Shown here one piece after another: positions 1 through 44,860 of a stretch of 51,327 nucleotides of DNA. The notes beneath the pieces were generated by a model. It made no database searches. It was not told the DNA's origin and was given only the letters and a program-made list of their open reading frames with translations. Position numbers and translations under genes: made by a program. Where the stretch lies: IMG/VR virus record IMGVR_UViG_3300036781_000817, positions 1 through 51,327 of that record; one strand, given 5' to 3'. The DNA comes from a virus. Positions within the stretch are counted from its first letter, which is position 1. Each line of letters opens with the position of its first letter.

Positions 1-702
1 TTAATGATTGTGCTTTTTATGAATATCCTTTACAAGGCAAAGTTTCTTAATGTCGGCAATCTTAATAACAAATGGTGCATATTTAAGCCTGTTGCCTATC
101 ATCTCCGTCGAATTATCTGAATGTGCAATAACTTCATCCTCGTTGTCTCCTGCAAGCAATCTTTTATACATACGATAATCACCCCACTCAATATAGTAGA
201 CCTCTCCCGGAAGTATTTTTTTATCATGGATAATCTTCAACGCCACCCAGCAACCGTTTTCGAGATAGGGATACATGGAATGACCCCAGACTGGCAGCGC
301 AAAATCACAGTCCTCAATGCCTGGAAAATTCATACGGCCCACAGGCTCTTTATCATTAATATCATTATAAACCTCAACTCCTGTGGCGGTAGCGGTTATT
401 TCGTACATTGGAATACCTTCCGATACTTTCGAAATCATCTCATTTTTAGAAATTGCTGTATATTTTTTTCCCGACAAGAAATCATTGTATTTTTCTTTGA
501 ATATCTTTAGCTTTTCTGTATCTATGTTTTGCCGGCTCTTTATAATTTCAGTAATAGAGCTTGGCGAGTTGAATCCCAATACTTCGGCCAGTTGGGTGTT
601 TCCGCTAAAAGCCTTTCCTTTAAGTTGATTATATAATATAATGAACTCCAGCGTTTCGGGCCGGATAGTTTTAATTTTAGCGGGTTTCGACACGTAATCC
701 AT
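1..702 (-). CDS. S24-family (LexA/CI-like) phage repressor, prophage A
   Basis: 233 aa, complete. The N-terminal ~75 residues resemble a Cro/CI-type DNA-binding domain. The C-terminal half is an S24 peptidase domain with the nucleophile in GHSMYP (Ser142) and the general-base Lys180 in RMYKRLL. Proteins of this family hold the lytic promoters of a prophage off and cut themselves when RecA filaments form after DNA damage. No obvious Ala-Gly or Cys-Gly cleavage pair is visible, so self-cleavage is inferred from the intact Ser/Lys dyad only. It is divergent from the small early gene at 915, the usual genetic-switch arrangement. The C-terminal ~100 residues closely resemble those of the second repressor at 30799-31539. 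Confidence 0.9.
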   Translation of the reverse strand: MDYVSKPAKIKTIRPETLEFIILYNQLKGKAFSGNTQLAEVLGFNSPSSITEIIKSRQNIDTEKLKIFKEKYNDFLSGKKYTAISKNEMISKVSEGIPMYEITATATGVEVYNDINDKEPVGRMNFPGIEDCDFALPVWGHSMYPYLENGCWVALKIIHDKKILPGEVYYIEWGDYRMYKRLLAGDNEDEVIAHSDNSTEMIGNRLKYAPFVIKIADIKKLCLVKDIHKKHNH

Positions 703-27429: not shown

Positions 27430-27468
27430 CATTGCAGATGTGAAAGCCTTTAGAAAATAATTTTGAAG

Positions 27469-27552
27469 TGCCCGGAACGAGATTCGAACTCGTACATCCT
27501 TACGAATGCCACCCCCTCAAGATGGTGCGTCTACCAATTTCGCCACCCGGGC
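27469..27552 (-). tRNA. tRNA-Leu (GAG)
   Basis: 84 nt on the minus strand. Acceptor arm GCCCGGG pairs with the 3' CCGGGC, followed by A. The anticodon loop TTGAGGG in a CCATC/GGTGG stem gives anticodon GAG. It has the long variable arm expected of leucine tRNAs and GTTCGAATC in the T arm. CCA is not encoded. Its 3' end faces prophage A, 39 bp from the spanin stop, making it a plausible attachment site. Confidence 0.93.
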
Positions 27553-27646
27553 TTTTTTTAAGTCCTAAGCCTTAAGTCAAAAGTTCTAAGTCAAGTAATT
27601 CCGACTATAGGCTCTCGACTCAAGACTTTGAACTTTCCAATGGATG

Positions 27647-27730
27647 TGCCCGAAGAGAGACTCGAACTCTCAAGAGACAATTCTCAACGGCTTCTGAGAC
27701 CGCAACGTTTACCAATTTCGCCATCCGGGC
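27647..27730 (-). tRNA. tRNA-Leu (CAG)
   Basis: 84 nt on the minus strand. Acceptor GCCCGGA pairs with TTCGGGC. Anticodon loop CTCAGAA in a GCGGT/GCCGT stem gives CAG. Long variable arm, T loop TTCGAGTC. It is upstream of the other leucine tRNA and likely in the same transcript. CCA not encoded. Confidence 0.92.
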
Positions 27731-27797
27731 ATTTTGTCGTGTCAAGTATTTGCTGCCAGTGTAACCCGTTAACCGTTTTTTGATCCGAACAAGGGTG

Positions 27798-27805
27798 CAA
27801 ATATA
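27798..27805 (-). promoter_or_regulatory. -7 promoter element for the tRNA-Leu pair
   Basis: On the minus strand TATATTTG (followed by C) matches the Bacteroidota -7 consensus, 68 bp before the first tRNA-Leu. A TTG about 22 bp upstream could serve as -33. A divergent gene starts at 27904. Confidence 0.55.
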
Positions 27806-27903
27806 ATCGTTTCGAGCAAAACGCCTTCAATAAAATATAAAAATAGGCAGCGCTTTGTAGAAATCGATATAAAGATTAATTTCGGAAGTCAATTGATCGA
27901 TTT

Positions 27904-28338
27904 ATGTTGAGGAAGATAGGCTTTTTATTGCTTTTGTCAATAACATTCAGTATTGCAGCATCGGCTCAGAATGCGGATGCAATTTTAGGTAAATGGCTCA
28001 ATCCGACAGGCGAAGGCCAGGTATTAATTTATAAAAAAGAAAATAAATACTTCGGCAAACTTGTTTGGATCAAGGTCCCGGACCGTGATGGCAAACCCAA
28101 AACCGATATACATAATCCTGATAAAGCCCTGCAATCCAGACCCGAACTTGGCCTCGAACTTTTACAGAATTTTACATTTAAAGGTGACGATGTTTATGGA
28201 GATGGTACCATTTACGACCCAAAGAGCGGTAAAACATACAGCTGCAAAATGACGCTGAATGATAACAATTTAAAAATACGCGGATACATAGGTATCTCCT
28301 TATTTGGCCGTACCGAAGTTTGGACAAGAGTAAAATGA
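27904..28338 (+). CDS. DUF2147-family secreted protein
   Basis: 144 aa. A Sec signal peptide (KIGFLLLLSITFSIAASAQ) precedes DAILGKWLNPTGEGQVLIYK, and the family-typical YDPKSGKTYSCKMTLNDNNLKIRGYIG / SLFGRTEVWTR close the protein. DUF2147 proteins are small beta-barrel-like periplasmic or secreted proteins of unknown function, common in Bacteroidota. This is a host gene, which marks the sequence between the tRNAs as chromosomal. Its stop overlaps the next start (ATGA), so the two form an operon. Confidence 0.88.
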   Translation: MLRKIGFLLLLSITFSIAASAQNADAILGKWLNPTGEGQVLIYKKENKYFGKLVWIKVPDRDGKPKTDIHNPDKALQSRPELGLELLQNFTFKGDDVYGDGTIYDPKSGKTYSCKMTLNDNNLKIRGYIGISLFGRTEVWTRVK

Positions 28339-29348
28339 ACAGAACACATTTAAAATCACTGGTGCTTTTATTGAGCGTATCCTTTGCCATAAATTTACAT
28401 GCGCAAACCATTACTATTTTACAACAAGGTAAACCTACAAGTATCCGGGGATTATCGGTAGTCGACGACAACGTTGCGTGGATTAGCGGCAGTAAAGGCT
28501 ATATCGCGATCACAACCGACGGAGGGAAAAACTGGACGTGGCAACAAGTAAAGGGATTTGAAAAATCTGATTTTAGGGATATTGAAGCTTTTTCGGACAA
28601 GGAAGCTATAATCATGAGCTCCGGAACACCTGCGGTAATATTAAAGACTACCGACGGCGGATCAAACTGGCAGATGGAATATAGCAACGCAGATACTGCC
28701 TGGTTTTTTGATGCGATGGATTTTGCCGATCCAAAACACGGTTATGTTCTGGGCGATCCGATTAATGGCAAATTCTTGTTAATGGAAACTAAAAATGGTG
28801 GAGAAACCTGGGATATGTTTAAAAACAGACCTGATGCATTGCCTGGGGAGGCAGCGTTTGCTGCGAGCGGTACTTGTCTGCGTCTTTATAATGGGGAAAT
28901 TGATATAGCTACCGGTGGAACGAATGCCCGTTTATTATCGTATCAGCACAATAATACGTGGAATTATTCAAATATCCCAATATTACACGGAAAGCAAAGC
29001 CAAGGCGCTTTTTCATTTGCTTTTGGCAAAAACAATGGCATTATCGTTGGAGGGGATTATGCTAATGATAAAAAAACTGATTCTATTGCAGCTATTCACA
29101 AAGTACACCCCATTTTATTTTTTTATACTCCTTCTAAACAACCTTCTGGTTTTCAATCGTGTGTTGAATGGATTTCAGCGGATATTTTCCTTTCTACGGG
29201 CACTCCCGGCAGCAATATTACTATGGACGGTGGCAAAACCTGGACGAAAATTGACGATACCAGTTATAACGTTTGCCGCAAGGCAAAGCACGGAAAACTT
29301 GTTTTACTGGGGGGCAACGGTGGTAAAATAGGTGTTTTTAAAATGTAG
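28335..29348 (+). CDS. Secreted Ycf48/BNR-like beta-propeller protein
   Basis: 337 aa from ATG 28335, with 4-bp overlap with the DUF2147 gene. An upstream in-frame TTG is rejected. Signal peptide MNRTHLKSLVLLLSVSFAINLHAQ. Repeated propeller blades contain Asp-box/BNR motifs: TTDGGKNWTWQQV, TTDGGSNWQMEY, TKNGGETWDMF and TMDGGKTWTKI. Proteins of this kind are often annotated as oxidoreductase or YCF48-related. The blades suggest a binding scaffold rather than an enzyme. Host gene. Confidence 0.8.
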   Translation: MNRTHLKSLVLLLSVSFAINLHAQTITILQQGKPTSIRGLSVVDDNVAWISGSKGYIAITTDGGKNWTWQQVKGFEKSDFRDIEAFSDKEAIIMSSGTPAVILKTTDGGSNWQMEYSNADTAWFFDAMDFADPKHGYVLGDPINGKFLLMETKNGGETWDMFKNRPDALPGEAAFAASGTCLRLYNGEIDIATGGTNARLLSYQHNNTWNYSNIPILHGKQSQGAFSFAFGKNNGIIVGGDYANDKKTDSIAAIHKVHPILFFYTPSKQPSGFQSCVEWISADIFLSTGTPGSNITMDGGKTWTKIDDTSYNVCRKAKHGKLVLLGGNGGKIGVFKM

Positions 29349-29399
29349 ATTATTGATAATTAAGTGCTTAAAATCGCTAAAAAATAAATTAAAATAGCA

Positions 29400-29431
29400 C
29401 TTGCGAACAATGCTCAATACTCCTATATTTG
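29400..29431 (+). promoter_or_regulatory. Promoter of tRNA-Lys
   Basis: CTTG at 29400-29403 and a consensus TATATTTG (followed by C) at 29424-29431 with a 20-bp spacer. The predicted start lies ~25 nt before the tRNA. Confidence 0.65.
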
Positions 29432-29461
29432 CACCACTTTAAACAAAAGCGTTTAAAGTAC

Positions 29462-29534
29462 GATTCCGTAGCTCAGCCGGTAGAGCATAACACTTTTAAT
29501 GTTGGGGTCCTGGGTTCGAATCCCAGCGGGATCA
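29462..29534 (+). tRNA. tRNA-Lys (TTT)
   Basis: 73 nt. Acceptor GATTCCG pairs with CGGGATC, discriminator A. Anticodon loop CTTTTAA gives TTT. T arm GGTTCGAATCC is canonical. CCA not encoded. The 3' end faces prophage B, whose first gene starts 267 bp downstream. Confidence 0.95.
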
Positions 29535-29538
29535 CTAG

Positions 29539-30798: not shown

Positions 30799-31539
30799 TT
30801 AATAATTAGGTTTTTTCAAAATATCCGTTAACAAGCAAAGCTTTGTAATTCTTTCAGTCTTTATGGTTTTTGAGGCATATTTTAACCGCTCACCTACCTT
30901 TTCAGAGATATTATCACTAAATAAAATAACGCTGTCCGGCTCTTCGTCTGCTTTTATCAACCGTTTCCAAACCCGGTAATCTCCATACTCTATATAATAA
31001 ATTTGTCCCCAATCAATATCATTGATATCATTAATAGGCCTGACAACTCCCCAGCTCCCATTTTCCAAAGTTGGGTACATAGAATGGCCATGGACCGGCA
31101 ATGCAAAACTATTAATGGCCGCGCCTGGTATATTCAGGTAACCGACAATTTTAACATCTGCATCATCACCGTACATCTTAACCATTGAGGCGCTTGCAGG
31201 CAAATTATACATAGGAATATTTTGTTTGATAAGGGTAGAGGTTGTTTGCATTTTAGGTTTTGAACGATTATAGGTTGCAGCTTCTTCATTTAACATATAA
31301 ACAGAATTTGTGTATGGGGTTCCTTGGCCTGTTTCATAGAACCTTTTACTTAAACCAAACTTGTTTATAAAATCTTCAACGAATTTTTCGGGGGCTGGTC
31401 TTTTTGGGTTAAAGTTATTTCCAAAAGCTTGAGGAGATAGGCCCATTTGTTCAGCTAGAGCCGCTTTTGTCGTTTCCGGCCTAGCTTCTAAGACCGCATT
31501 TAGCATAGCAATTAATCGTTCTTTTAATACATCTTTCAC
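30799..31539 (-). CDS. S24-family phage repressor, prophage B
   Basis: 246 aa. The N-terminal helix-turn-helix (TKAALAEQMGLSPQAFGNNF, ~24-43) is followed by a linker and an S24 peptidase domain with Ser153 (GHSMYP) and Lys192 (RVWKRL). It is the first gene of a leftward operon with the SHOCT protein and the XRE regulator. The divergent early promoter at 31600-31630 carries paired repeats suited to this protein. The C-terminal half aligns closely with the prophage A repressor, while the N-terminal DNA-binding halves differ, so the two probably do not cross-recognise operators. Confidence 0.92.
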   Translation of the reverse strand: MKDVLKERLIAMLNAVLEARPETTKAALAEQMGLSPQAFGNNFNPKRPAPEKFVEDFINKFGLSKRFYETGQGTPYTNSVYMLNEEAATYNRSKPKMQTTSTLIKQNIPMYNLPASASMVKMYGDDADVKIVGYLNIPGAAINSFALPVHGHSMYPTLENGSWGVVRPINDINDIDWGQIYYIEYGDYRVWKRLIKADEEPDSVILFSDNISEKVGERLKYASKTIKTERITKLCLLTDILKKPNY

Positions 31540-33383: not shown

Positions 33384-34346
33384 ATGTCAAACGAAATACA
33401 ATTAACAGCTAAATCCTTATTTAACAAAGAGGATATAAAAAAGCGCTTTCAAGATATGCTCGGGACGAAAGCCCAGGGTTTCATTTCATCTGTGTTACAG
33501 ATCGTGTCACAGAGTGCCGATCTTGCAAAGGCTGACCCCAATAGTGTACTACAGGCGGCGGCAATGGCTGCAACTTTAGATTTACCATTAAATAAGAATT
33601 TGGGGTTTGCTTATATCATTGCCTATAAGACAAAGGTAAAAGGCTTAAACGGCAAGCCTGACACATACAATGTTGTTGCTCAGTTTCAAATGGGGTACAA
33701 AGGTTTTATTCAACTGGCACAAAGGACCGGCACTTTTAAATCTATTGGCGTATCAGCCATTTATGAAGGGCAGTTAAAAAAACAAAACCCTTTGACCGGG
33801 TTTGAATTTGATTTTGATATCGATATCAAAGAGAACGCCCCTGTTATCGGGTATGCCGCTTACTTTCAGTTACTAAACGGTTTTGAAAAAACTTTTTACA
33901 TGCCCATCGATAAATTATTAAAACATGGCGCCAAATATTCAAAAAGCTTTTATGATAAAAACGGTCGTTGGACGACTGATTTTGATGCCATGGCTGAAAA
34001 GACCGTTTTAAAATTATTGCTTTCAAAATTCGCTCCGCTATCCATTGAAATGCAAAAAGCAGTTATAAGCGATCAGGGCGTTATCAACAATTTCGAAACA
34101 GATGATTTTACATACATCGATAACGAAAGCGACGAAGATGAAAAAATCGACGTTGACCAGGTGGCTTTAATGATAAAAGAAGCGGATACCTTAGACAACC
34201 TTTTTGCTTTGAAACATTATCTATCAGCCGCCCCGGAGTTAACCGACCTTTTTAACTCCCGGGAACTTGAACTCAAAGAATCCGCGGTTAACAAGAAAAA
34301 GGATACTATCAAAAATAATTCACAAACCAAAGTAACCTTACTATAA
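33384..34346 (+). CDS. recT: RecT-family single-strand annealing protein
   Basis: 320 aa. The RecT core is clear: KKRFQDMLGTKAQGFISSVLQIV, NSVLQAAAMAATLDLPLNKNLGFAYIIAYK, VAQFQMGYKGFIQLAQRTG and WTTDFDAMAEKTVLKLLLSKF. RecT proteins coat single-stranded DNA left by an exonuclease and anneal it to its complement during phage recombination. The last ~70 residues are acidic and variable. The stop codon overlaps the start of the nuclease-FtsK gene (TAATGAG), the usual annealase/exonuclease pairing, although here the partner is unusual. Confidence 0.95.
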   Translation: MSNEIQLTAKSLFNKEDIKKRFQDMLGTKAQGFISSVLQIVSQSADLAKADPNSVLQAAAMAATLDLPLNKNLGFAYIIAYKTKVKGLNGKPDTYNVVAQFQMGYKGFIQLAQRTGTFKSIGVSAIYEGQLKKQNPLTGFEFDFDIDIKENAPVIGYAAYFQLLNGFEKTFYMPIDKLLKHGAKYSKSFYDKNGRWTTDFDAMAEKTVLKLLLSKFAPLSIEMQKAVISDQGVINNFETDDFTYIDNESDEDEKIDVDQVALMIKEADTLDNLFALKHYLSAAPELTDLFNSRELELKESAVNKKKDTIKNNSQTKVTLL

Positions 34347-36427
34347 TGAGTATATACAAATCATACAGCCCCGAGAAAATGGAAGAGTTGCTCTCCAATT
34401 TCTTAATTAGCAGCTGGAGCTATAGTAAGGTTGCCCAGTTTGCCCGGAACGAAAAGGCATTTGAAATGAGTTACATTTATGGTATAAAATCTAAAAGCTC
34501 AGCGACAACCATAGCGGGCCAGGCTTACCATGATGCTCTTAAAAACTTTTTCCGGGAACTAAAAAAGGACGGCACACAGCTTGAATTACCTGAATTGCAA
34601 AAAATAGCCTATGACTTTATAGAAGATCAACCGGCCAATTACTGGAAGCTTCAAAAAACCACGCCAACAATGGTAGAGGCGAAGCAAAAAGCAACCGACG
34701 ATGTTAATGCATTTCTTAATAATTTCTATGGAGAGTTAGGCACTTACATTGACTACATCGACGAGGTTATAGACGTTGAGCTTTATTGTGATGAATTCCT
34801 TACCATCAATGGCGTTGATATCCCTATGCCTTGCCACCTTCAAATTGACTTGGTTGTAAAAACCACTTATGGAGCAATAGCTGTTTTAGATCATAAAACA
34901 AAGAGATCCTTTACTGATCAAGATGAATTAAAATTATCAGGGGGCATACAGGCTATAACCTACGTAAAGGGCTACGAATCAAAAACAGGTATTAATGTTG
35001 ACGAGGTTTGGTTCATCGAAAATAAGGTATCGAAAAACAAAGACCGTTCCCCGCAGCTAAACGCCTTCAAAATCAAAATCAACAAAGATATAAGACGGCT
35101 ATATGAAGCCATTTTATACGAACCGTTAAAACGGATGGTTGAGGCGGTGAGCGACCCGGACTATTGTTATATCATTAACGAATCTGACAACTTCGTTGAC
35201 AAAGCCGAAATCTACGAGTTTTGGGCAAAGACAATGATTGCAGAGGTCGAAGAGTTCAATATTGTACCGGAAAAGCGTAACCTGATTGTAAGACGGCTTA
35301 GAAAAATCAGGGATGCTTCGCTAGCTACCATCAACCCCAAAATTATCAGGGACTTTCAAAAGAATGCAGCCGAATTTATTCAATACGATTTAAGTAACAA
35401 AAACATGACTTCACAAGAAAAAATAGAACATATTTTAAGGAGCTTCGGAATACTTGTCCAGGTTGCTCATAAATTTGATGGGTATTCCTGCAATACCTTT
35501 TTACTGGAAATATCTGCAGGAGTTAAAATCTCTTCTATTCACGGCCATAAACTGGACATTGCTAACGCGTTGGACGTTCCGACCGTCCGTATTCCTAATG
35601 AATTATTAGTGCATGAAGAAAAAGCATATTTGGCAGTTGAGTTTTTAAAGAAACGAGAAAAAAATCTTTTCTTTGACCCCTCTGCTTTGGTTGGTAGAAA
35701 AATACCGATCGGTAAAGACAATTTCGACAATACCATTGTTTGGGATTTGGATAATCAATCTACGCCACACGTTTTAATTTGCGGCGCAACCGGAAGCGGC
35801 AAATCAGTTTGCATACGTGCAACAATCGAATATGCTTTACAATCAGGCATAGACGAGGTTATAATCTTTGACCCTAAATATGAATTTTTAGCTTACGACA
35901 AGCATCCGAAAGTTTCTGTTTACAATGAGATCATTGCCATTGAGGAAGAAATGGCAAACTTGGTAAAAGCTATGAATACGCTTGTTAAACAGGGCAGGAA
36001 AACAAGAACACTTGTTATAACAGACGAGTTCGCCGACGCTGTTTCAGCTTCAAGAAAGGGACCTGAGCTTAAAATTTATGAAGATGTTATGGTTGGCATG
36101 TATGCCAATGGTGCACCCAAAGTAAAACGCGAATGTACCGGAGAGTTAAAGTCACTTGAAGAAAACCAAAAGATATTGTTACAGAAAGGGCGCTCAGTCG
36201 GTTTCAGGATTATGTCAGCCACGCAAAGGGCATCTGTTAAAGTTATTACCGGCGACGCAAAAGTAAACTTCCCTGTTCAGATATGTTTTCGGGTACCCAA
36301 AGAGACTGATAGCCGGGTTGTACTTGATGAACCAGGCGCGGAATCATTGGCAGGAGCTGGCGACGGCTTAATGAAATCTCCTGAATATAAAAGTATCGTA
36401 AGGTTTCAGGGCTTTTACAAGGACTAA
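34346..36427 (+). CDS. PD-(D/E)XK nuclease fused to FtsK/SpoIIIE-type DNA translocase
   Basis: 693 aa. Residues ~1-330 form a RecB/Cas4-like nuclease: His62 (GQAYHDAL), Asp168 (CHLQIDLVV), Asp182-x-Lys184 (VLDHKTKR) and Gln202 (IQAITY). Residues ~354-693 form an FtsK-type motor: alpha-like segment (TSQEKIEHILRSFGI), Walker A GATGSGKS (480-487), Walker B LVITDEFAD (Asp560-Glu561), then SATQRASVKVITGDAKVNFP and ETDSRVVLDEPGAESLAGAGD as in FtsK. There is no membrane domain or gamma winged helix. It follows recT and precedes the parB gene. An in-frame ATG at 35405 sits at the domain boundary (MTSQEKIEH) and could yield the motor alone. Likely a motor-driven end-resecting nuclease for RecT. Role inferred. 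Confidence 0.85.
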   Translation: MSIYKSYSPEKMEELLSNFLISSWSYSKVAQFARNEKAFEMSYIYGIKSKSSATTIAGQAYHDALKNFFRELKKDGTQLELPELQKIAYDFIEDQPANYWKLQKTTPTMVEAKQKATDDVNAFLNNFYGELGTYIDYIDEVIDVELYCDEFLTINGVDIPMPCHLQIDLVVKTTYGAIAVLDHKTKRSFTDQDELKLSGGIQAITYVKGYESKTGINVDEVWFIENKVSKNKDRSPQLNAFKIKINKDIRRLYEAILYEPLKRMVEAVSDPDYCYIINESDNFVDKAEIYEFWAKTMIAEVEEFNIVPEKRNLIVRRLRKIRDASLATINPKIIRDFQKNAAEFIQYDLSNKNMTSQEKIEHILRSFGILVQVAHKFDGYSCNTFLLEISAGVKISSIHGHKLDIANALDVPTVRIPNELLVHEEKAYLAVEFLKKREKNLFFDPSALVGRKIPIGKDNFDNTIVWDLDNQSTPHVLICGATGSGKSVCIRATIEYALQSGIDEVIIFDPKYEFLAYDKHPKVSVYNEIIAIEEEMANLVKAMNTLVKQGRKTRTLVITDEFADAVSASRKGPELKIYEDVMVGMYANGAPKVKRECTGELKSLEENQKILLQKGRSVGFRIMSATQRASVKVITGDAKVNFPVQICFRVPKETDSRVVLDEPGAESLAGAGDGLMKSPEYKSIVRFQGFYKD

Positions 36428-36739: not shown

Positions 36740-38566
36740 ATGGCCACTAAAAAAGCAACCAAAACGAGCAATCAGCCTAAGACAACTGAAAGCCCGGCTA
36801 ACGAAATCCCGATATTGGAAAATTTACATTTATCGGCTATCGTTCCGAGTCCATTAAACCCTCGCAAAGAAATCGATCAGCAAGCCATTAACGAGCTTGC
36901 AGAATCAATTGAAAAAGTCGGGCTGATTCAACCTATCGTCGTACGTAAAAAAGCAGGAGAGCCCGGCGTTTATGAACTGATTTGCGGAGAGCGCAGGTTT
37001 TTGGCATCGAAGATTGTAAACGAACGTAATCCAAAGCGTGAAACTATTGCCGCCAGTATCAGAACATTAAATGACGCGGAAGCCATGGAATGTATGATTA
37101 CTGAAAACTTACAGCGCAAAGATGTTCACCCATTGGAAGAGGCTAACGCTTTTAAACTAATGATTGATCACATGAATTATACGATCACCGATATTTCGGC
37201 TAAGATCGGAAAGAATGAGCCGTTTGTAAATCGCAGGCTGCAGCTGATCAATTTAATTCCTGATCTTAAACTTATATTTCATACCGGCGAATTGCCGATA
37301 GGCCATGCCGAATTATTAAGCCGCCTTGAACCGTTAGACCAAACGTTATTCTATAATAACAAATTTGGCAATAGTAGCTATAACTCCGGGGCTGGAACAT
37401 TGCGCGAACTGAAAAACTGGCTTAACAATAACACTAACAAAGAATTGTCGAAAGCTATTTTCGATCTTTCCGAAGAGAATTTAGGGACTATTCGCTGTAT
37501 AGCTTGCACCAATTGCCCAAATAACACTTCTGTTTCAAACTCTATATTATTTCCTGATTCCACGGAAGAGGCAACTTGTACTTTCAAGGCTTGTTTTCAG
37601 GATAAAACAAAACAATATTTTAACCGGGAACTGGAAGTTGCCTTAAAAAATCCGGATATTATTATTGTATGTGATTCTTACGGCGAAAATGAGATTACGA
37701 AATCGTTGAAAGCTCAGGGTTATACTGTTTATTTTAGGTATAGCGATTATTCAACTCTTGGCGCAATTCCTGAACTTAAAGACTTTACGGAAGATATCGA
37801 CCGGGACGACTACGAAACGGAAGAGGATTACCAACACGATATAAATTCAGCAAACACACAGTTTGAAGCAGAGTTAAACGAGTACAATGAAAACGCAGAA
37901 ACATACAAAAAAGCATTCGACGTTAATTCCGGTAGGTATATTTATGTTCAGCTTACCGAAAAAAGCAGATCATCAAACTGCGACAGCCCCGGCGTTGAAA
38001 ATTCACGAAATGAACTTGTGGCCAAAATCGAACAAAAAAGGACCCGGGGGCGCGAATTAGATCAGGAAAAAATAATGAAACGCCTGGTTGATCATGTTAA
38101 AGAGTTACCAATAACCAAACAGCCAACAGCACCCGATTTAACACCCGAAGAGCTTAACGGGCTTATTGCTTTGGCCTTTGAAAATGTTGGCTATGGTGAG
38201 CGTAAAAAATCAATGTTAGAAGCCTTGGGACTGCCTAAAGATTACTCCGACTATCACAAAGGCCCGGAAACGGTTCGCGCTATAAGCAAAGCTTCTAATG
38301 AAGCTCGCGCCTTTGTCGTTCGGCTTGCCCTGCTAAACAAATTCAGCAATATAGCACCTACAAGCATCAGCGGGGGCGTAATGTTTCACATAGCTAAAAG
38401 CTGGTGCCCGGAAGAGTTTGACGAAATGGTAAAAGATCAGGGCGGTGTACGCCAAAGGAGAGAGGCAAAGCTGGACAGCAAGCTAAAAGATTTTGACAAA
38501 CAAAACGACCCTGCCAAAGAAGCCCAGGAGCAACCCCAACCGGAAGTACAGGAACAAGAAGCATAA
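36740..38566 (+). CDS. parB: ParB-like partition/nuclease-fold protein
   Basis: 608 aa. The N-terminal ParB/Srx domain carries the CTP-binding motifs GERRFLAS (83-90) and ENLQRKDVHPLEEA (122-135), followed by a helix-turn-helix (TITDISAKIGKNEPFVNRRL, ~148-167). A Cys cluster (CIACTNCPN ... TCTFKACF, ~253-293) is probably a metal-binding insertion seen in plasmid and phage ParB. The remainder is helical with an acidic Gln/Glu-rich end. ParB proteins load as CTP clamps at parS sites. No ParA ATPase lies nearby, so a role in partition, replication or transcription is open. Confidence 0.88.
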   Translation: MATKKATKTSNQPKTTESPANEIPILENLHLSAIVPSPLNPRKEIDQQAINELAESIEKVGLIQPIVVRKKAGEPGVYELICGERRFLASKIVNERNPKRETIAASIRTLNDAEAMECMITENLQRKDVHPLEEANAFKLMIDHMNYTITDISAKIGKNEPFVNRRLQLINLIPDLKLIFHTGELPIGHAELLSRLEPLDQTLFYNNKFGNSSYNSGAGTLRELKNWLNNNTNKELSKAIFDLSEENLGTIRCIACTNCPNNTSVSNSILFPDSTEEATCTFKACFQDKTKQYFNRELEVALKNPDIIIVCDSYGENEITKSLKAQGYTVYFRYSDYSTLGAIPELKDFTEDIDRDDYETEEDYQHDINSANTQFEAELNEYNENAETYKKAFDVNSGRYIYVQLTEKSRSSNCDSPGVENSRNELVAKIEQKRTRGRELDQEKIMKRLVDHVKELPITKQPTAPDLTPEELNGLIALAFENVGYGERKKSMLEALGLPKDYSDYHKGPETVRAISKASNEARAFVVRLALLNKFSNIAPTSISGGVMFHIAKSWCPEEFDEMVKDQGGVRQRREAKLDSKLKDFDKQNDPAKEAQEQPQPEVQEQEA

Positions 38567-38572
38567 TATTTT

Positions 38573-41278
38573 ATGATCTACGACGATTTTTTGAAATCAA
38601 AGGTGAGGTTTGCAGAAACGACCGGGTTTATCATTTCAGATGAAGAGATAAACCCGGCGCTGAAGCCTCATAACAAATTAATGGTTAAATGGCTTGTAGA
38701 GGGCGGTCGCCGCGCTTGTTTTGCAAGCTTCGGATTACACAAAACCGTTACACAGCTTGAAACCATTAGATTAATATTAACCCGTACAGGCGGACGCGGG
38801 TTAATTATTTGCCCTTTGGGTGTCCGTCAGGAATTTATTAAAGACGCCCTCAATATTTTGGGTTGGTTAGTCCCGCCTAAATTTATACGCAGGATTGAAG
38901 AGTGTGAAGAAACCGGCATCTATTTAACCAATTATGAAACGGTCCGCGACGGCAAACTTGACCCACGGCTATTTGAAGCCGTATCGCTGGATGAAGCTTC
39001 TATATTACGGGGATTAGGCGGCTCGAAAACATTCCGCGAATTTATGCGCCTGTTCACCGGTGACGCTGGCCCCAATGGTAATAGGAGAGGCACAGAATGC
39101 GTAAATTATCGTTTTGTAGCAACCGCGACACCATCACCAAACGATTATATAGAATTATTGGCTTATGCCGACTTTTTGGGAGTTATGGACGTTGCCCAGG
39201 CTAAGACACGATTCTTTAAACGTAACAGCACGAAAGCCGATAAACTGACTATTCATGCACATAAAGAAGAAGAGTTTTGGCTATGGGTGGCTTCATGGGC
39301 TTTGTTTGTAAATAAACCATCCGACATTACTAATAACGAGGCTGACGATATTGGTTATAATATGCCGGCTATGGATTTACGCTGGCAGGAAATACCGTCA
39401 GATCATACACAGGCAGGCGCTGAAAAATGGGGGCAACACAAAATATTTGCTGAAACTGCTATTGGTCTATCCGGTGGAGCTAAAGAAAAGCGCAATAGTC
39501 TTATTGCTAGAGTAGGTAAAATGATGGAATTGCGCGAAGAAGATCTTTCTGCACATCGTATCATTTGGCATGACTTAGAGGACGAGCGTCGCGCGATCAC
39601 TAAAGTTATTCCTTCCTGCAGGGCTGTTTATGGCTCTCAAAAGAAATTGGAAGAGCGTGAAGAGATAATAAAAGCTTTTTCATGCGGTGAATTGCAGGAG
39701 CTTTCCGGTAAGCCCTCAATGATAGGTTCCGGGACAAACTTACAGATGTATTGCTCATGGGCTATTTACTTAGGTATCGGCTTTAAATTCAACGACTTCA
39801 TACAGTCATTACACAGGCTGTTACGCTTTGGACAAAAAAACCGTGTCCGTGTCGATCTGATATATACCGAAGCTGAGCGTCAAATCAGAAAACAACTTGA
39901 AAGAAAATGGTCACAGCATAATAAAATGGTTCAAAAGATGATTGAAATAAATAAAAAATACGGCCTTTCTCAACAGGCCATGGCTCAGATGTTAACCCGT
40001 AAAATGGGCGTGGAACGGGTTGAAATAACCGGAAAAAATTACACGATCGTTCAAAATGATAATGTTAAAGAAATGCCGAGGATAGAAAGTAATTCGATCG
40101 GCTTAATATTAACATCAATCCCCTTTGCAACCCAATATGAGTACTCCCCTAATTATGCTGATTACGGTCATAGTGAAAATACTGGCGAGTTTTTCAGGCA
40201 AATGGATTATAGCACACCCGAAGCATTTCGCGTTCTTATGCCCGGACGTATTGCAGCTATTCACGTTAAAGATAGGATAGTACCAGGTGGTTTAACCGGC
40301 TTAGGGTTCCAAACTTCTTATCCGTTCCATTTGGACGTTATTGAGCATTACAGCACTTGCCCTGATTGCCGACTACGTATAGCAATTTCAAAATCGAAAG
40401 GTGAAACTTTTAAGCCATGCTCGCACCGTTTCGCCTATTTGGGTATGAAAACTATTGTTACAGACGTTGTACGTGAAAACTCGCAGACCTACCGGTTAGG
40501 CTGGACCGATCAATGCAAGGACGGTTCAAGAATGGGAGTTGGTATGCCTGAATATCTATTATTATTCCGTAAACCACCTTCTGATAATTCTAATGGTTAT
40601 GCTGATTTGCCAGTATTTAAGGAAAAACCATTACAAAGGTTACCTGACGGAACGACAAGGAAATTCATAAACAAAACAAAAGAGCCTATCGTCCCGGACA
40701 CAGGTTATTCGCGCGGCCGTTGGCAGTTTGACGCTCATGGATATACAAGGAGTTCCGGCGATAGGTTACTCAATGTCGAAGAAATTATAAAGCTTGCTCC
40801 CGATGTAATATTTAAACTCTTTCGGGATTATTCACTTAATGAAATTTGGAATTTCGATCATATTGTCAAAATAGCCGAAACATTAGAATGCCACGGTAAG
40901 TTACCACCCGGATTTATGTTATTGCAACCGCAGAGCTGGACAAATGAGGTATGGACAGACGTTGTAAGAATGCTTACCCTGAATGGCTCACAATGGAGCA
41001 TGGGCAAAGAAATGCACATCTGCCCGATGCAATTTGATATAGCTGATCGGGTTATTGAGCAAATGAGTAACCCAGGCGAAATAGTACTTGATTATTTCGG
41101 TGGATTAATGACAGTCCCCTACAGGGCAATATTAAAAGGTCGTTATGGTTATGGCATCGAACTTAACCAACCATACTTTGTTGATGGGGCTCATTATTGC
41201 AAGGCCGCGGAAAATAAGGTATCAGCTCCTACACTTTTTGATTTGGCCGATATTGAAAAAGGAGAGGATGCAGCATGA
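38573..41278 (+). CDS. SNF2-like helicase fused to N6-adenine/N4-cytosine DNA methyltransferase
   Basis: 901 aa. The N-terminal ~450 residues are an SF2 motor: Q-motif-like LKPHNKLMVKW, modified Walker A FGLHKT (53-58), DEAS (140-143), TATP (184-187) and HRLLRFGQ (414-421). The C-terminal part is a beta-class methylase with motif IV SIPF (515-518) and a motif I-like LDYFGG (839-844). A Cys cluster (CPDCRL ... CSHRF) lies within the methylase. The SNF2 Gly is replaced by His in Walker A, and SIPF differs from the usual [DNS]PPY. Probably modifies phage DNA while translocating. Four-base overlap with the next gene. Confidence 0.82.
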   Translation: MIYDDFLKSKVRFAETTGFIISDEEINPALKPHNKLMVKWLVEGGRRACFASFGLHKTVTQLETIRLILTRTGGRGLIICPLGVRQEFIKDALNILGWLVPPKFIRRIEECEETGIYLTNYETVRDGKLDPRLFEAVSLDEASILRGLGGSKTFREFMRLFTGDAGPNGNRRGTECVNYRFVATATPSPNDYIELLAYADFLGVMDVAQAKTRFFKRNSTKADKLTIHAHKEEEFWLWVASWALFVNKPSDITNNEADDIGYNMPAMDLRWQEIPSDHTQAGAEKWGQHKIFAETAIGLSGGAKEKRNSLIARVGKMMELREEDLSAHRIIWHDLEDERRAITKVIPSCRAVYGSQKKLEEREEIIKAFSCGELQELSGKPSMIGSGTNLQMYCSWAIYLGIGFKFNDFIQSLHRLLRFGQKNRVRVDLIYTEAERQIRKQLERKWSQHNKMVQKMIEINKKYGLSQQAMAQMLTRKMGVERVEITGKNYTIVQNDNVKEMPRIESNSIGLILTSIPFATQYEYSPNYADYGHSENTGEFFRQMDYSTPEAFRVLMPGRIAAIHVKDRIVPGGLTGLGFQTSYPFHLDVIEHYSTCPDCRLRIAISKSKGETFKPCSHRFAYLGMKTIVTDVVRENSQTYRLGWTDQCKDGSRMGVGMPEYLLLFRKPPSDNSNGYADLPVFKEKPLQRLPDGTTRKFINKTKEPIVPDTGYSRGRWQFDAHGYTRSSGDRLLNVEEIIKLAPDVIFKLFRDYSLNEIWNFDHIVKIAETLECHGKLPPGFMLLQPQSWTNEVWTDVVRMLTLNGSQWSMGKEMHICPMQFDIADRVIEQMSNPGEIVLDYFGGLMTVPYRAILKGRYGYGIELNQPYFVDGAHYCKAAENKVSAPTLFDLADIEKGEDAA

Positions 41279-43936: not shown

Positions 43937-44860
43937 ATGAGAATCGGTATTGTACAAGTCGACGGCGATATGCCGAACATGGCATTGATGCAAATTTGTG
44001 GCTATCACGAAGCGTTAGGCGATAATGTTGAATGGTGGCAAGGTCCGTTATTTAACGAGCGCTACGATAAAATATATGCTTCAAAGATTTTCAGTTTTTC
44101 AAAATTACCGCAATTACCTGATAATGCCGTTATAGGCGGTACCGGTATTGATTATAAAAACAAGCTTCCAATAGAAATGCAAGGTAACTTACCGTCATAT
44201 ACTTTATATCCTGATTGCAATTTTCACATTGGTTTTTCAATGAAAGGCTGTAGGTATAAATGTGAATTTTGCTGTGTGCCTCAAAAAGAGGGACGGCCAT
44301 ATTTTAACAGTTCGATCGCTGATTTACTGTTAAATCCAAATGGCAAAAACCGGTTAATGTTACTTGATAATGATTTCTTTGGTATAACCAATTGGGAGGA
44401 AAATCTACAGGAGATAAACCGGCTTAAATTAAAAGTTTGCTTTGCTCAGGGCATAAACATTCGTATAATTTCAGATCGGCAAGCAAAAGCATTAGCGGAA
44501 ACTAATTTCTATAATACAAAGTTCGACCAGCGATACGTAACATTTGCTTGGGATGTTTTCGAAGATGAAAGGCCAGTAATGCGAGGTATTAAAAGGTGTA
44601 ACGATGCCGGCATACCCTGCAATAAAATGCAATTTTTCGTACTTATCGGACATAAAAGCACACACGAACAAAATATAGAGAGAATTACCAAGCTTAAAAA
44701 TATGGGTTGCCTGCCGTTTGCAATGCCTTATGATAAAAGTGATCCTTATCAAAAAGCATTTGCCAGGTGGGTAAACCAACGTGCCGTATTTAATAGCTGC
44801 TCATGGGATGATTACAAATACAATAAGTTTCAATTTAAAGCTACTATACAAGCCAATTAA
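43937..44860 (+). CDS. Radical SAM enzyme
   Basis: 307 aa. The cluster motif CxxxCxxC is present as Cys105-Cys109-Cys112 (KGCRYKCEFCCVP). The first ~90 residues (MRIGIVQVDGDMPNMALMQICGYHEALGD) resemble the Rossmann-like N-terminal region of B12-binding-type radical SAM proteins, without the DxHxxG cobalamin motif. The TIM barrel is short. The enzyme should cleave S-adenosylmethionine to a 5'-deoxyadenosyl radical. The substrate is unknown. Its place 531 bp after a C5 methylase and downstream of an adenine methylase suggests a nucleobase or tRNA/DNA modification, which is inference. Radical SAM genes are uncommon in phage replication operons. Confidence 0.85.
   Translation: MRIGIVQVDGDMPNMALMQICGYHEALGDNVEWWQGPLFNERYDKIYASKIFSFSKLPQLPDNAVIGGTGIDYKNKLPIEMQGNLPSYTLYPDCNFHIGFSMKGCRYKCEFCCVPQKEGRPYFNSSIADLLLNPNGKNRLMLLDNDFFGITNWEENLQEINRLKLKVCFAQGINIRIISDRQAKALAETNFYNTKFDQRYVTFAWDVFEDERPVMRGIKRCNDAGIPCNKMQFFVLIGHKSTHEQNIERITKLKNMGCLPFAMPYDKSDPYQKAFARWVNQRAVFNSCSWDDYKYNKFQFKATIQAN

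Follow-up and report, generated by a model that had tools for sequence, protein, structure and literature searches.

Phages prepare DNA ends for recombination with a short list of enzymes, Exo, RecE and YqaJ. We asked what fills this role in the virus record IMGVR_UViG_3300036781_000817, analysed here over its whole 51,327 bases (the window), in which the recombinase gene recT is followed by a gene that joins a nuclease to an FtsK-type motor. With a probability of roughly 0.77, this fusion is the nuclease component of a phage two-component recombinase, a nuclease joined to a ring translocase that would drive end resection with ATP and work much as HerA-NurA does. The two genes lie as follows.

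34346..36427, plus strand: nuclease-translocase fusion gene, from the ATG at 34346 to a stop ending at 36427, encoding one 693-residue protein
33384..34346, plus strand: recT, the partner gene, encoding a single-strand annealing protein (SSAP) of 320 residues (Pfam RecT, E 3.6e-42; phrog_148, E 1e-73)

The fusion open reading frame (ORF) is intact. It lies where an initial annotation, made from the sequence alone, had placed it, and its start overlaps the end of recT by 1 base. Three Pfam domains score above their curated cut-offs: PDDEXK_1 at residues 23-213 (E 7e-9), FtsK_alpha at residues 350-418 (E 1.5e-7) and FtsK_SpoIIIE at residues 452-583 (E 1.5e-10). An AlphaFold2 model (mean predicted local distance difference test score, pLDDT, 88.5) separates the protein into two domains with a low-confidence, flexible hinge at residues 344-348.

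A RecB-type nuclease joined to an FtsK motor

The nuclease half carries, within the core fold, the His, Asp, D-x-K and QxxxY signature of RecB/Cas4-type enzymes. Counts below refer to 112 distinct full-length members of the family.

34379..35233, plus strand: RecB/Cas4-type PD-(D/E)XK nuclease domain, residues 12-296 (PDDEXK_1, AdnA structural match, Foldseek)
34529..34531, plus strand: His62, nuclease motif I (H in 110/112, D in 2)
34847..34849, plus strand: Asp168, nuclease motif II (112/112)
34889..34897, plus strand: Asp182-x-Lys184, nuclease motif III (112/112)
34949..34963, plus strand: Q202-x3-Y206, RecB-type QxxxY motif (Q 112/112, Y 110/112)

Structural alignment of residues 12-296 with the AdnA nuclease region gave a Z score of 17.1 and a root-mean-square deviation (rmsd) of 3.8 over 240 residues, and Foldseek matched the domain to ACE1/Cas4 and AdnAB. 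The active-site residues initially proposed are thus retained in homologues, H62 in 110 of 112 and D168, D182, K184 and Q202 in all. A Cas4/AddB-type Fe-S cluster calls for four conserved Cys; in the family alignment, no Cys of the nuclease half is invariant or nearly so.

The second half is an FtsK alpha-beta motor, with an alpha domain, a RecA-like beta domain, both Walker motifs and a Gln sensor; Q627 is kept in 112/112.

35405..36427, plus strand: FtsK alpha-beta motor, residues 354-693; a separate motor-only protein is predicted to start here too (FtsK Z 31-33; M354 in 110/112)
35783..35806, plus strand: Walker A GATGSGKS, residues 480-487 (G480, G485 and K486 112/112)
36023..36028, plus strand: Walker B Asp560-Glu561 (D 109/112, E 112/112)

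Residues 353-693 superpose on FtsK motors at Z 31-33 and rmsd 2.2-2.6 over about 304 residues, with alignments starting at model residue 353-355; the matched structures include the DNA-bound rings 6t8b, 6t8g and 6t8o. HerA structures follow at Z about 20. Positions invariant in the 112 sequences include D168, D182, K184, Q202, G485, K486, E561, Q613, Q627 and R628, spanning both halves. Pfam gave no match to the FtsK gamma domain in the fusion, which ends at the motor, and a hydropathy scan found no candidate membrane helix (the highest Kyte-Doolittle mean over 19 residues was 1.15). Residue conservation, Pfam and hydropathy therefore agree with the first description of an intact Walker A/B motor lacking membrane and gamma domains, and the fusion is not a full-length FtsK/SpoIIIE chromosome translocase.

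In one relative (L047:3784-6687), the fusion gene is interrupted precisely at its Walker A loop by an intein that contains an HNH endonuclease (GATG, then the insert C...HN, then SGKS), with Pfam support from Intein_splicing (E 6e-13) and HNH_3 (E 2e-9).

A phage-borne family without split forms

A search with the single protein returned 51 loci, an alignment search of IMG/VR gave 137 confirmed relatives, and 84,980 genomes yielded 38 loci. Nearly all of the 112 distinct full-length members reside in Bacteroidota phages or prophages; the taxa represented include Flavobacterium, Tenacibaculum, Chitinophaga, Dysgonomonas, Prevotella and Muribaculaceae. The farthest members come from Puniceicoccaceae (44% identity) and a Caldisericia metagenome-assembled genome (MAG; 25-28% identity, full length). 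A few further matches lie on short contigs of MAGs assigned to other phyla, and these may be misbinned phage.

When the nuclease half alone served as the query, 81 of 81 loci were in-frame fusions. With 112 full-length members besides, we rejected a sequencing or assembly artefact: the fusion is genuine and does not represent two genes merged by a sequencing error. No place in 50,697 annotated phage records covered 80% of the fusion, nor did the nuclease half have any match there, and no match in 72,556 plasmids reached 80% coverage. Among 395 evenly drawn Bacteroidota genomes searched with the nuclease half, only the seed genome was hit; hence the fusion is a rare, accessory, phage-borne gene.

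The fusion adjoins annealing-protein genes

In nearly every locus whose contig extends that far, a co-directional gene lies directly upstream of the fusion. Of these partners, 107 belong to eight families that BLAST keeps apart: phrog_3657 (34), RecT (18, not counting that of the window), Sak4-like AAA proteins (15), the RecT-like phrog_561 (15), one family without a name (10), ERF (7), Rad52/Sak (5) and phrog_15333 (3). Partner and fusion genes overlap by 4 bp in 63 of the 107 loci and by 1 bp, the window's type, in 15. A nuclease gene adjoining an annealing-protein gene, as in a two-component recombinase, is thus present in 107 loci, and the idea that the fusion gene takes an exonuclease's place beside the annealing protein extends well beyond the window. 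RecT as the specific partner did not hold, as it accounts for only 18 of the 107 beside seven other families.

The largest partner family, phrog_3657 (for example L012:3854-4678), is of unknown function in PHROGs and is a probable Rad52-type annealing protein according to its predicted structure (pLDDT 83). VIA-align placed RAD52 first (Z 7.0), followed by Mgm101 (6.3), Sak (5.7), the RAZR-activating Gp77 (5.4) and Red-beta (5.0), with the next unrelated fold at 4.7; all 14 best entries are annealing proteins or Gp77. With Foldseek by itself, no match to this family was significant. Its relatives in Gordonia, Rhodococcus and Blautia phages adjoin genes annotated as RecE or exonuclease, and for two partner families, relatives in other phages adjoin plain RecE-type or other exonucleases. 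Such neighbourhoods suggest that the fusion replaces an exonuclease (RecE/Exo/YqaJ) beside the annealing protein.

Profile comparisons of five partner-family pairs found no fold-level homology, and some of the families may be remote relatives of each other. Several comparisons lit up the tail only, which led to the tail finding described below.

No other constant neighbour of the fusion emerged among the window genes tested. The initial annotation had asked whether ParB is a constant neighbour. ParB follows here (36740-38566); a homologue of it is present in only 2 of 118 loci, and we rejected the partnership. This 608-residue ParB-type protein has a long C-terminal region and matches phrog_18726 end to end. 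Could the fusion instead be a motor that positions the chromosome or phage genome, aiding segregation or packaging, tied to ParB and only incidentally bearing a nuclease? Its FtsK family membership and the parB gene two genes downstream would fit, whereas the scarcity of ParB among the loci, the absence of gamma and membrane domains and the presence of a phage-encoded terminase make this very improbable. A packaging ATPase was likewise rejected, as the window encodes its own terminase, portal and head protease.

The fusion gene stands in a plus-strand operon downstream of a repressor gene, and temperate phages place their recombination genes in just this position.

30799-31539, minus strand: CI-like repressor, upstream of the recombination operon

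Dissimilar partners share a C-terminal tip

The partners' last residues follow one pattern, exemplified by the window's RecT.

34293..34343, plus strand: RecT C-terminal tail KKKDTIKNNSQTKVTLL, a predicted docking tail with the tip [LM][P/L/M/A]-COOH (tip common to 101/107 partners)

The last residue but one (-2) is L or M in 105 of 108 proteins and the last (-1) is P in 83 of 108, otherwise mostly L, A or M; residue -3 is often D or E, and residue -4 often hydrophobic or P. This tip, [LM][PLMA]-COOH, occurs in 101 of 107 partners versus 17 of 915 other ORFs of the same loci. Could it be a by-product of a CCATGA gene overlap? We rejected this explanation because the tip is present in 25 of 27 partners whose genes lie apart from that of the fusion, is retained across an inserted homing endonuclease or other genes (L027, L041, L061), and is found in only 6 of 125 ORFs with an ATGA overlap to the next frame.

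We then compared partners with same-family relatives from IMG/VR that lack the fusion, the RecT controls having been found with a single RecT query. Across the same five families pooled, the tip occurs in 40 of 42 proteins with the fusion versus 12 of 275 without it. By family, these fractions are 15/15 versus 0/54 for Sak4-like proteins, 17/18 versus 3/47 for phrog_3657, 3/3 versus 0/55 for ERF, 1/2 versus 2/60 for phrog_561, and 4/4 versus 7/59 for RecT, where five of the seven fusion-free cases share one near-identical tail ending in EVLP.

At least eight dissimilar families have thus converged on the same last residues mainly where this nuclease adjoins, which suggests that the tip is a shared docking tail for the fusion, with a specific physical contact predicted. 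Specificity between annealing protein and nuclease is known from lambda Red and RecET. A different explanation is that the tip mimics the C-terminal tip of the single-stranded DNA-binding protein (SSB) or binds a host factor, and that the fusion merely co-travels. The pattern (hydrophobic, D/E, L/M, P-COOH) does resemble the SSB tip without its last Phe, and among SSAPs without the fusion, some have other, aromatic ends, for example PGF, EGF or DPFA. Such mimicry would sit poorly with the 40/42 versus 12/275 difference within the same families, and we consider it unlikely. If docking on the fusion is correct, the tip gives rare access to the way in which nuclease and annealing protein recognise each other, and the contact could be tested with a short peptide.

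Several loci are of separate interest. One carries a free HNH endonuclease gene (L027:5477-6004) between the annealing-protein gene and the fusion, and its annealing protein keeps an MEMP tail. In L041:3623-5993, a tailed upstream protein ending in PPQMP is followed by a gene that starts like a DnaQ-type exonuclease, two ORFs and then the fusion. The same tail also marks candidate new annealing proteins without usable annotation: L014:3457-4197 and nine relatives; L006, L007 and L101; and L029:5186-6001. Fusion-free annealing proteins (L257, L261, L265, L359-L438, L599-L678) often end in PGF, PGY, PEF, IEGF, DPFA or ELPL. These other tips may be codes for other partners, and the same tail logic may reveal partner codes in other phages.

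A predicted internal start at the motor boundary

The in-frame ATG at 35405 is codon 354, and Met354, present in 110 of 112 members, is the first residue of the motor fold. The initial annotation had named this ATG as a possible start of the motor alone, and four features now strengthen that proposal: synonymous constraint, an A-rich context, low mRNA pairing and conservation of the Met codon.

35375..35422, plus strand: constrained stretch, codons 344-359, predicted internal translation start region (synonymous constraint, A-rich and G-poor context, lowest mRNA pairing)

In a codon-level test normalised per amino acid, windows centred on codons 344-354 showed excess synonymous identity (z 2.7-2.95, versus 1.2 or less elsewhere in the gene), and this was so with 112, 70 and 37 sequences as redundancy was lowered. 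Against family usage, the codons preferred near 354 are TAC GAT TTA ... AAA ... ATG ACA ... GAA AAA. Positions -15 to -1 contain 48% A and 11% G, compared with 56% and 7% at annealing-protein starts and 34% and 28% at other conserved Met codons; A occupies -6 in 86%, -13 in 79% and -12 in 59%. Predicted mRNA pairing is lowest here (0.34 versus 0.54 +/- 0.05 elsewhere). A search for Shine-Dalgarno sequences (1/104 at codon 354, 6/104 at gene starts) was uninformative because Bacteroidota rarely use them. In Flavobacterium johnsoniae, initiation is determined by A at -3, -6, -12 and -13 together with low structure (PMC6847099). A motor-only isoform is probably made from the ATG at 35405.

The constraint might instead reflect a promoter or some other element in the DNA or RNA. 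It extends 10 codons upstream of 354 and takes in a conserved TACGATTTA, loosely like the Bacteroidota -7 element (TAnnTTTG) and wrongly spaced for it. Set against this, the constraint is centred on a Met codon that opens the motor fold and is kept in 110 of 112 members, the A at -6, -13 and -12 and the low G match the F. johnsoniae determinants (PMC6847099), and local structure is lowest at codon 354. We regard such an element as possible, though doubtful.

Proposed mechanism

In the end-resection reading, the FtsK-type motor domains would form a ring on the end of a DNA duplex and use ATP hydrolysis to draw the duplex through it. On the alpha-domain (N-terminal) side of the ring, RecB-type nuclease domains would cut one or both strands of the passing DNA, leaving single-stranded DNA; by homology, such resection would be processive and ATP-driven. 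The annealing protein from the overlapping upstream gene would be recruited by its C-terminal tip and loaded on the single strand, which could then anneal to a homologous strand. In this way the fusion might support recombination-dependent replication of the phage genome, its joining into concatemers or the repair of its breaks. A common tail would allow unrelated annealing proteins to be swapped while the nuclease-motor stays constant, and the codon-354 start would supply motor-only subunits, giving mixed rings with fewer than six nucleases. Whether all of this combines into one undescribed phage recombination engine, with an FtsK-ring-powered RecB nuclease, a universal C-terminal docking tip for unrelated annealing proteins and mixed full-length/motor-only rings, we judge to be evenly balanced.

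Several observations weigh against the proposal. His62 is replaced by Asp in two members. Six nucleases per ring would differ from the two in HerA-NurA. For phrog_3657, the Z scores of 5-7 are middling and only suggestive, and there is no sequence-profile link to RecT or ERF. Six of the 107 partners lack the tip, some fusion-free RecT proteins carry it, and in two fusion-free loci (L300 and L357) the tips KLL and TLL precede a YqaJ-like protein downstream. The tip could also bind a partner other than the fusion. Finally, the ORF upstream of the full-length fusion on the Caldisericia MAG contig (L089:1493-3538) lacks the tip, so the fusion may be older than the tail system, or independent of it.

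A defence or counter-defence role would cast the motor as a scanner that pumps competing DNA into the nuclease in the manner of DndH and other HerA/FtsK capture systems, with the adjoining recombinase a coincidence. PADLOC matched the motor, weakly to moderately, to Mad8, SspH and HerA, the DndH C-domain is among the structural matches (Z 22.4), and restriction endonuclease-HerA/FtsK proteins are established in defence (PMC10853773). The PADLOC matches, however, are confined to the generic motor, and the nuclease resembles RecB and AdnA. In 107 loci the gene just upstream is a recombinase of one of eight families, with its fusion-dependent shared tail, and none of the other window genes tested is a constant neighbour. 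A defence effector is improbable; like the SSB-like tail and the codon-354 promoter, it draws weaker support than end resection. The fusion is compact (693 residues), and neither DndF/DndG nor Orc/Cdc6 neighbours were found among the window genes scanned.

Relation to known systems

Red-alpha/Red-beta, RecE/RecT and YqaJ with its SSAP likewise place a nuclease gene beside an annealing-protein gene, and involve the same RecT and ERF families. In contrast to these nucleases, that of the fusion is RecB/Cas4/AdnA-like and joined to an FtsK ATPase motor; and unlike classic two-component recombinases, one nuclease family here is paired with at least eight partner families that have a common C-terminal tip.

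HerA-NurA couples a HerA/FtsK-superfamily ring pump to a nuclease for end resection, with NurA atop the HerA ring (PMC9960219). The fusion resembles it in combining a nuclease with a motor of the ring-pump superfamily to which HerA structures align. Whereas HerA and NurA are two separate polypeptides, the fusion is one (81/81 nuclease-half loci), with an FtsK-type alpha-beta motor, a RecB-type PD-(D/E)XK nuclease, a phage location and an annealing-protein partner. AddAB, RecBCD and AdnAB also unite a RecB-type nuclease with an ATP motor for resection, and the AdnA region aligns at Z 17; their motor is a superfamily 1 helicase, whereas the motor here is an FtsK ring-type pump for double-stranded DNA.

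Nucleases fused N-terminally to a HerA/FtsK motor are known from DndH and other HerA/FtsK capture proteins, which act in defence (PMC10853773). Those are large multidomain defence proteins, in contrast to the compact phage protein found here beside a recombinase. Full-length and motor-only forms of one protein occur in the T7 gene 4A/4B primase-helicase, where an internal start yields both and the two can mix in one ring; that is a different enzyme, and the short form here is predicted.

No published description of the fusion was found in the open-access literature searched, in keeping with the suggestion that a system of this composition is undescribed. That claim stands for the pairing with a phage annealing protein and for the anatomy; it does not extend to the mere joining of nuclease and motor, since DndH-type fusions are known (PMC10853773). 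What we did not find in the literature is the combination of nuclease-motor fusion, SSAP pairing, common docking tip and probable short form; nuclease-HerA/FtsK fusions and nuclease-SSAP pairs are each known, and an exchangeable linear tip is new to us. If the end-resection reading is true, a ring-pump machine joins the phage ways of preparing DNA ends for recombination, and native SSAP-fusion pairs could become tools for Bacteroidota genetics, where recombineering is hard.

Mycobacterium phage Thibault offers a further case of an FtsK pump paired with the processing of DNA ends in a phage: a stand-alone FtsK-like gene (L169:4589-7281) lies three genes after a Ku gene.

Other genes of the window

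The window starts with a second repressor-like gene, which encodes a Peptidase_S24 protein (1-702, minus strand), and three tRNA genes lie within 27468-29535. A 901-residue protein (38573-41278) matches a phage DNA helicase over its length and, close to the C terminus, an N6/N4 DNA methylase, an unusual combination. The early operon also includes a member of the Radical-SAM phage family phrog_9298 (43937-44860, E 4e-65).

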